Origin: Nitzschia sp. pyKryTriq1
Taxonomy: Eukaryota; Bacillariophyta; Bacillariophyceae; Bacillariales; Bacillariaceae
Assembly: GCA_956465555.1 (NCBI GenBank)
Contig: OY101117.1
Location: forward strand, 3,348,001-3,412,000
Length of the DNA: 64,000 nt
Direction of reading: 5' to 3'
The notes under the pieces were generated by a model. That model did no database searches. It saw nothing but the letters and a program-made list of their open reading frames with translations, and had not been told where the DNA came from. The position numbers and the translations under genes are program-made. Of the stretch, positions 28,279 to 30,788 are shown one piece after another; position 1 is the stretch's first letter, and every line of letters starts with the position of its first letter.

Positions 28279-30097
28279 TCACTCGGATACGATGGCAATC
28301 TGTTTCATCGCTTTCTTGGTTTTCGGCGCGGCCACGAAAAGGACACCGTTCTGAAGCGTGGCAGTGATATTGCTCGTGTCTACGGTATCGAGGTCCAATG
28401 CGAAGGATTTGGTCATGGTACGGGCAGAAACAGCATCGTCCGCATTGCGGGTTCCGGATACGATAAGCATGTGGCCGTCGAGCTGCACATCCACATCGCC
28501 CATGGTAACTCCTGGCATATCAATAGCAAGCTGGAATTTATCCTCGGTGCTCACGTCTTCAGCGTACGGTCCGCCTGTACCTTCGTCGAGACCAGCAAAA
28601 TGTTTGACATTCGAGAGAATGTTGCGATTGAGCCAATCCACAACCATTTCCAGAAACTGGTCGTTCGCCGCGAAGACACACGTGATCGCAGCACCCCAAG
28701 CGGCGAAATAGCCATTTCCAGTTGTCGTCTGTACATAATATACCATAGTAGTAGGATGAGTGATGAGCAAAAGTTTCGTGATACAATGTGAGATAATGAG
28801 AGTGGATATCAGTATGTATCGACATCCGTAGAATTTACAGTACTTACAAAGGGTCCATCAAAGGTCATCAAAGTAGCTGCGGCCACCCACATGACCGCGA
28901 AACAGGTGATCACTGCGGATTTGATAGTCGCATCGAAATCTCGCAAACGTTCCACAAAAATCAATGTCACAATGGACAAGATCAAGGAGTACATGATATT
29001 GACTTTGTAAGTCTTGTCATCCACTAATTCGGAGCTCAACGCGATAATTACTGATGCGTTATTATGCAAGAACACGAAAAAGGCAAGCAAGCAAACAACA
29101 GCCAAACTTAGATTCAGTAATTCATTCATATCGTCATGACGTGTGACAATATCAAGAGTTGAGTCGCCCAGTCGAAAAAAGAACAAAGCACAACTTACAA
29201 ACGATCGAAAACAATCCCAAACCCAGCAGCGATGTTCCGTCGTAAGCCGATTCTTTCATATGCTTGGCAGTGATGCCCTAATTTAATGAGTATCATGGAC
29301 GCAGCAGCACAACAGATGCAAATGAGGCGATGCTCTTCGTTGAACATTGTTTTTCAAGCATAGGATTGAGAATCAATGACCACTTACCATCGTTTGGACA
29401 CTGAACAAGGCCATCCCCCAAGACGAAAAATAACCGTTTCCTGTCTCGACCTGGGATATTGTAATACCAACAACAATAATGATATCATGGTGAGTGACGT
29501 CCTCCAAGAAGCCCAACAGATCGTACACCAACCACATAACGACAGAGTACTCACAAACGGCCCTCGCCCAAACGTCAAAACTCCGGCAGCGATGAAACTC
29601 CAGAGAAAACAAAGGGCGGATATCCATTTGGACAAGGAGCCTTGATCCCAGGTGGTTTTCCAACTGAGTAGGAGTCCAAACGACGAAAGAACCATGCCGA
29701 CCGGCCCTACCGAAACCGCATACTGGTAGTAGCGATGTGTTGGATCGACAGAAAGACAGGCGGCCATCACATTGACCATGCTAGAAAGGAGCATTCCGAG
29801 CATGGGGACTTGCTTGTCGGAAATGTCAATCGCCACGCCTGCAATCTTTAATTTGACGTCCCCTTCTTCGCCAGTAGTACTAGCTCGTCGGGGAGGAGGC
29901 CCAGACCGCCCTCCGATTGATTGCGGTAAGGACGAGGCGGAGGTGGTGTAGGGAGCAGGGCTCTCAGCAGCGATTTCTACATCTCCAGTAATGTCGGGCT
30001 TGGAAACTGATGGTGTGGCTGCCATAGTTGGAGCGCCCTCAGGGATTTCTACATCTCCAGTAATGGCGGGCTTGGAAACAGATGATTCGTCTGCCAT
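28279..30097 (-). CDS. Eight-pass membrane protein with duplicated module fused to a C-terminal HSP20 (alpha-crystallin) domain
   Basis: My five-exon minus-strand model: 29555-30097, 29388-29450, 29199-29277, 28848-29050 and 28279-28728. Donors are GTGAGT, GTAAGT, GTAAGT and GTAAGT; acceptors CCCAG, TTAG, ATCAG and TACAG. All phases agree, giving 445 residues. The N-terminus is Pro/Ser-rich with a repeated ITGDVEI. Module 1 (about 90-200) and module 2 (about 205-320) each have four hydrophobic segments and end in the same signature, GRGPF|VETGNGYFSSWGMA and FDGPF|TTTGNGYFAAWGAA, with an intron at the same place (bar). Exon 5 then runs without a break into an alpha-crystallin domain: KFQLAIDMPGV, VQLDGHMLIVSGTR and LQNGVLFVAAPK, the usual sHSP strands. 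Known: sHSPs hold unfolding clients. Inferred: a membrane-tethered chaperone. Two separate genes is the alternative, but no stop or start separates them. Confidence 0.65.
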
Positions 30098-30427: not shown

Positions 30428-30788
30428 GGAACGGTTGACAAACTCACAAAAACGGAATCAGTCACGTCTGTCCGTCGCGCACGTTTCTTCATTGTGGGCA
30501 TATATATAATTTGATACGACATCATCAGGACACACGACGGATTGCAAGCAGTGCGAGGTCTGTCATCCGTCACGAATACATCGCGACGCGTCGCAACGCG
30601 TCGCGACGCGTCGCGATGTATTCGCGACGCGTCACAAACCTCGTGACGGACGATAGACCTCGCATTGCGTGCAATCCGTCGTGTGTCCTGATGATGTCGT
30701 ATATGACTATATATATGCCAATAATGAAGAAACGTGCGCGACGGACAGACGTGACAGATTCCGTTTTTGTGAGTTTGTGAACCGTTCC
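30428..30788. mobile_element. Foldback (long inverted repeat) element, MITE-like
   Basis: The two halves are near-perfect reverse complements: GGAACGGTTGACAAACTCAC at 30428 pairs with GTGAGTTTGTGAACCGTTCC ending at 30788, and the similarity continues through CACGTCTGTCCGTCGCGCAC-type, GATGTCGTAT-type and ACACGACGGATTGCA-type blocks to the centre near 30608. The centre is a CGCGACGCGT tandem. No transposase is encoded; open frames on both strands here are mirror images. A possible TACT/AGTA match lies just outside the arms, but I could not settle a target-site duplication. Confidence 0.75.

Follow-up and report, generated by a model that had tools for sequence, protein, structure and literature searches.

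The diatom Nitzschia sp. pyKryTriq1 encodes, on a 64,000-nucleotide stretch of its genome (contig OY101117.1, positions 3,348,001 to 3,412,000; hereafter, the window), a gene in which a membrane protein and a small heat shock protein (sHSP) domain are one polypeptide. Two four-helix modules in tandem and a complete alpha-crystallin domain are read in a single frame, and this join is kept in diverged relatives. The chaperone is thus probably built into the membrane rather than free-floating. The architecture is well supported; the function is one that we infer. A preliminary description of the window, made from its letters, had proposed such a read-through from membrane part to chaperone domain, and the intronless coding sequence and the conserved fusions described below bear it out.

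Continuity of the reading frame

The gene lies on the minus strand and has five exons, whose joined coding sequence (CDS) comprises 445 codons and a stop. Our protein search recovered P0001, a 445-residue protein that spans the membrane and chaperone parts without introns on a single contig of 1,577 bp. A near-identical second copy of the gene is present on contig C1, where all five exons align to those of the window without gaps. Residue for residue, P0001 equals the protein encoded by the C1 copy, and four of its 445 positions (94, 125, 140, and 247) are different in the window protein; between the two genomic copies, ten codons differ, four of them as amino-acid changes. The CDS spans 1,825 bases in the C1 copy and 1,819 in the window, with one additional base in intron 2 and five in intron 3. 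The contig of P0001 is shorter than either span and therefore cannot be the C1 genomic locus; it derives either from a spliced transcript or from a copy that lacks introns, the library type being our guess. Searching the genome with the exon 5 protein gave ten matches, of which two, the window and C1 loci, are near-identical and both intron-bearing, which disfavors an intronless retrocopy within this genome as the source of P0001; another strain may carry one. The splicing of exon 4 to exon 5 anticipated by the preliminary description is in this way supported indirectly, through the sister copy, one contig, and an inferred library type.

The fusion in diverged relatives

The proposal that the same fusion be sought elsewhere was fruitful. 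Four further proteins, P0002, P0003, P0004, and P0059 (58%, 59%, 41%, and 42% identical to P0001 over the match), share the order TM6-TM8 (transmembrane helices 6 to 8), long helix, variable linker, and HSP20 domain. In P0003 and P0059, membrane helices and HSP20 occupy one open reading frame (ORF), and the contigs, which reach 53,145 and 28,669 bp, are too long for transcripts; judged by their sequences, these frames seem to begin at the position of intron 3 and to lack intron 4. The protein searches rely on shared five-residue words, and two of them scored the best 7,999 and 7,996 candidates by word sharing. The region search missed P0004 and P0059, so the fusions number at least five. All five come from the source 'lgn', which we take, as a guess only, to be Logan assemblies, and P0059 comes also from 'ena'.

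In a tree of the last module with 44 rows (43 of the 124 signature-bearing proteins introduced below and a paralogue from contig C17), the five fused proteins form one clade with support of 98/92. They also group, at 89/94, in an 18-row tree of the chaperone domain, where they adjoin the genome's own sHSPs. That tree holds the five fused proteins, five soluble sHSPs of this genome (out of nine non-fused HSP20 places), and eight HSP20 matches lacking the signature, which we labeled bacterial and two of which carry bacterial names. The simplest reading of these groupings would be one fusion event. Scans of GTDB contigs, and of IMG/VR with alignment A1 and family alignment A3, gave no confirmed relative; within those scans, a prokaryotic or viral origin is without support.

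A duplicated four-helix module at the base of the fusion

The AlphaFold2 model places eight helices in the membrane part. The eight hydrophobic segments of the preliminary description hold as predicted structure, but helices 4 and 8 are weakly hydrophobic, and six 19-mers exceed a Kyte-Doolittle value of 1.6. Its claim of a duplicated module is well founded: in a single hhalign comparison, module 1 (residues 92-208) and module 2 (residues 209-325) are homologous with a probability of 99.8% (E 8.4e-29), and each carries the signature TFxGPFxxTGNGYFxxW. Across 55 sequences, W283, T291, F296, N301, Y303, F304, and W307 are invariant. Introns 1 and 4 occupy equivalent sites in the two modules, each directly after the GPF, which suggests that this intron predates the module duplication. 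A Pfam search of the window protein and its relatives found no family for the module, as the preliminary description had also been unable to name one, and family profile A2, run against PDB sequences, gave a single match at E 0.3, which is not meaningful. The top solved match to the predicted fold is a MARVEL tetraspan.

The wider family points to the site of the join. Of 133 proteins found, 124 bear a [GS]NxYF signature, and five of these carry HSP20 by precomputed Pfam annotation; source labels within the family include Skeletonema, Thalassiosira, and Attheya. Among 92 two-signature proteins, 2 to 75 residues follow the last signature in 91, and 141 in P0001. The C17 paralogue likewise terminates in ...GNGYFSAWLGCGLSLMIAGSLVP at its stop. 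Because two-signature members and this paralogue stop near the join, the most likely origin of the fusion is the addition of HSP20 to an existing eight-helix protein at the point where that protein normally ends. Seven one-signature proteins (P0032, P0042, P0045, P0046, P0050, P0126, and P0130) have tails of 124 to 449 residues with no precomputed Pfam domain.

Other family members vary further. P0009 has four signatures. P0095 carries a WW domain (E 6.7e-10) at its N-terminus; more than one soluble domain thus seems to have been paired with the eight-helix module. The stand-alone relative P0006 is resembled in predicted structure by the viral protein G8DGJ7 (BFVD, E 2.8e-5) and by A0A2P0VNE3 (BFVD, E 1.6e-4), a transmembrane protein of Tetraselmis virus 1; a related membrane protein may therefore be present in one or more giant viruses of algae.

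The chaperone domain

HSP20 (PF00011) matches residues 355-439 with E 6.8e-14 and 52.3 bits against a cut-off of 20.8, and scores 53.1 bits in P0059. The alpha-crystallin domain as a whole covers residues 348-442 (28291..28575, minus strand) and ends in a C-terminal I-x-I motif, IAI, at residues 440-442 (28291..28299, minus strand). The tail is of this type in all five fusions (IAI, IAI, IVI, IHI, and ILV), as it is in working sHSPs. Between membrane and chaperone, AlphaFold2 predicts a long helix (residues 301-343; 28588..28716, minus strand), in which TM8 is prolonged as a stalk toward the chaperone domain.

Proposed function and its alternatives

Our preferred reading, which we regard as somewhat probable, is that the gene encodes a polytopic, membrane-embedded sHSP, with MARVEL-like tetraspan modules, cytosolic termini, and a tethered holdase. 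There are eight helices, and both termini therefore lie on one side. The module would be a MARVEL-like tetraspan that sits in an endomembrane or in the plasma membrane and has both ends on the cytosolic side, and the helix after TM8 would position the alpha-crystallin domain at the cytosolic face. There, on the simplest mechanism, the domain would act as an ATP-independent holdase, binding unfolding membrane or membrane-near proteins under stress. Through its I-x-I tail and its beta4/beta8 groove, the protein may dock with itself or recruit soluble sHSPs to that membrane; candidate partners of the tail are neighboring alpha-crystallin domains, whether the protein's own or ones encoded at the nine other HSP20 places.

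Several observations weigh against this proposal. P0001 alone is complete, as the four relatives start in or just before module 2. The model assigns no beta6 strand between residues 389 and 400, where the beta5-beta7 loop is short, and dimerization by strand swapping, as in plant-type sHSPs, may not be available to such a monomer. Heat-shock elements occur in the window at chance, with 21 matches where 21.8 were expected and 21 where 22.9 were. The MARVEL match of the module's predicted fold stands barely above unrelated helical bundles. Within loop limits that we set, K/R make up 10 of 75 residues on the terminal side and 3 of 32 on the other, with 11 and 5 D/E, so loop charges would favor cytosolic termini only weakly.

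Some of the same observations fit other explanations. The alpha-crystallin-type domain could be an assembly or docking domain, which multimerizes the membrane protein or binds a partner and is no longer a holdase. The unassigned beta6 strand and the absence of heat-shock elements above chance are in line with this, as are RTM2/SLI1-type proteins, which act in resistance and phloem functions and, in the source, are not described as classical chaperones (PMC7077274). However, the alpha-crystallin fold is otherwise complete and the I-x-I type tail is kept in all five fusions, and we consider a docking domain unlikely, although it is the strongest of the rivals. Still less likely is a membrane chaperone whose sHSP domain is lumenal, extracellular, or intra-organellar. 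Nearly balanced loop charges would allow it, three soluble sHSPs of this genome (L003, L004, and L005) start with what we judged by eye to be signal-like segments, and by sequence P0001 comes nearest, among PDB entries, to the chloroplast sHSP HSP21. Yet the region of about 95 residues before TM1 has no signal-like start and, if the likeness counts, MARVEL tetraspans have both termini in the cytosol (PMC8145151).

Two explanations deny a functional fusion, and we hold both to be very improbable. In the first, the model wrongly merges two adjacent genes, one for an eight-pass protein and the other for a soluble sHSP transcribed from in or just before exon 5. Stand-alone family members do end near the join, and residue 324 of the window protein is a methionine, the only one in the segment that leads from the last membrane signature to the chaperone domain. 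However, P0001 covers both parts on one contig, P0003 and P0059 unite them in one ORF on long contigs, and all four relatives have a residue other than methionine at the position aligned to Met324. On this evidence, the two-gene reading is largely rejected, and a separate sHSP starting in exon 5, the outcome that the preliminary description named as fatal to its claim, is not favored. The linkers of P0004 and P0059 contain methionines, and their sequences may thus allow an additional internal start. A recent, accidental fusion without function would suit the few full-length examples (one complete protein and four fragments), but both halves, and AAND/SAND-x-FL next to the membrane, persist in relatives at 41-59% identity, and the fused modules are a single clade.

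The usual view of sHSPs is of soluble oligomers that go to membranes only when the cell is stressed, and the membrane stabilization proposed for them is hard to separate from their soluble function. If the membrane-embedded sHSP proposed here is real, a permanently anchored domain would allow membrane-localized holdase function to be tested with one gene at one location, and would open a first way into the function of this diatom membrane family, which otherwise has no name. More tentatively, as a possibility that we would not yet count on, a diatom lineage may have a dedicated membrane chaperone, in which a doubled MARVEL-like tetraspan seeds co-assembly of soluble sHSPs and a holdase is permanently stationed at one membrane rather than called there by stress.

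Exon structure and genomic surroundings

All four introns are of the GT-AG type (104, 110, 148, and 119 bases for introns 1 to 4) and exon phases are compatible. The gene model is further supported because the exons of the C1 copy align without gaps and length differences within the CDS span fall only in introns. Thus, the five phase-matched exons of the preliminary description stand, and it placed the end of exon 4 (28848) and the start of exon 5 (28728) exactly. All exons lie on the minus strand, and their domain content follows the AlphaFold2 model. Exon 1 (29555..30097, residues 1-181) holds the start codon, a disordered N-terminus (residues 1-74), a beta hairpin, and TM1-TM3, and ends in TFGRGPF. 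Exon 2 (29388..29450, residues 182-202) carries the signature VETGNGYFSSWG and TM4, and exon 3 (29199..29277, residues 203-228 with the last codon split) carries the inter-module link and the start of TM5. Exon 4 (28848..29050) extends to residue 296 with the remainder of TM5, TM6, and TM7, ending in TFDGPF. Exon 5 (28279..28728, residues 297-445), supported by the HSP20 match and the continuity of P0001, encodes the signature TTTGNGYFAAWG, TM8 and stalk, linker, HSP20 domain, and stop. The uncertain junction is intron 3 (29198-29051, minus strand), the site of the C1 copy's net five additional bases, where the acceptor chosen restores the frame. An alternative exon 4 start near 29109 was dropped, as a compatible donor was not seen and the five bases would land in that exon. 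The N-terminal coding part contains a 58-nt direct repeat (29968..30097, minus strand; two copies, 88% alike, 72 bases apart) that encodes a duplicated SVSKPxITGDVEI stretch.

Just upstream of the gene is a 148-nt inverted repeat (30428-30788; arms 30428-30575 and 30641-30788, 92% complementary) enclosing a smaller palindrome (30554-30643), and rich in CGCGACGCGTCGC. By its sequence, it looks like a foldback or miniature inverted-repeat transposable element (MITE)-like element; in the C1 copy, extra sequence breaks up this stretch. Downstream, a minus-strand frame at 26070-26495 matches thioredoxin (PF00085, E 2.9e-8). Along its full length, the window runs parallel to the terminal part of C1 (G000:C1:4485283-4560000), in 18 collinear blocks of more than 300 bp that are 87-99.6% identical. 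Four 4-kb pieces of C3 outside the window (C3:3110001 to C3:3544000) also match C1 in order, one only over about 1.7 kb. The stretch shared by C1 and C3 is at least about 430 kb, and is either a large terminal duplication or two haplotypes on different contigs.

The genome has 11 HSP20 places, of which the two fusion copies make up two. The stop-to-stop frames that contain the remaining nine show no signature and no 19-mer above a Kyte-Doolittle value of 1.6. Two near-identical soluble sHSP genes lie about 6 kb apart in opposite orientation (G000:C4:635486-635764 and 642005-642283).

Comparison with known systems

The literature searched, in which subscription papers are mostly outside coverage, held no polytopic sHSP and nothing on the eight-helix family. 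A proposed 'membrane chaperone' is HSPB1 (PMC9266964). The fusion shares its alpha-crystallin domain with soluble plant and algal sHSPs, and the best PDB sequence match of P0001 is chloroplast HSP21 (5nms, 7bzw; E 3.7e-9, residues 357-440). HSP21 is not known to have a transmembrane anchor, and in the fusion, unlike HSP21, the short beta5-beta7 loop leaves beta6 unassigned. HSP21 does associate with thylakoid membranes in heat-stressed plants (PMC5563132).

For the membrane part, MYADM offers a precedent for a doubled MARVEL module (PMC8145151). The family nonetheless differs from MARVEL tetraspans such as synaptogyrin (8a6m) and MYADM in lacking a significant sequence match to them; Pfam MARVEL matches one of 43 family members (E 0.016) and none of the others at E 0.1, and the motif TFxGPFxxTGNGYFxxW is peculiar to the diatom family. 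The literature consulted, as far as its coverage goes, mentions no chaperone domain for MARVEL proteins.

Among the closest known systems are RTM2 and SLI1 of Arabidopsis, whose anchor is C-terminal. In these transmembrane-domain-containing hsp20-like proteins, too, one chain holds both the hsp20-like domain and its membrane anchor; as described, they have a predicted transmembrane domain and not two tandem four-helix modules (PMC7077274). It is this description that sets them apart from the fusion, for which eight helices are predicted in place of a single anchor. In kinetoplastids, ATOM69 is likewise an integral membrane protein whose alpha-crystallin domain (ACD)-like domain faces the cytosol, but that domain is N-terminal and accompanied by TPR, and the protein is an import receptor of the mitochondrial outer membrane (PMC6197667). 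Because RTM2, SLI1, and ATOM69 each have one, a membrane-tied alpha-crystallin-type domain is not unique; the literature consulted describes none of the three as having a polytopic anchor of tandem modules. The preliminary description's view of a membrane-embedded sHSP as a new architecture therefore holds in a narrower sense, as anchored hsp20-like proteins exist and the new element is the polytopic, tandem-module anchor.
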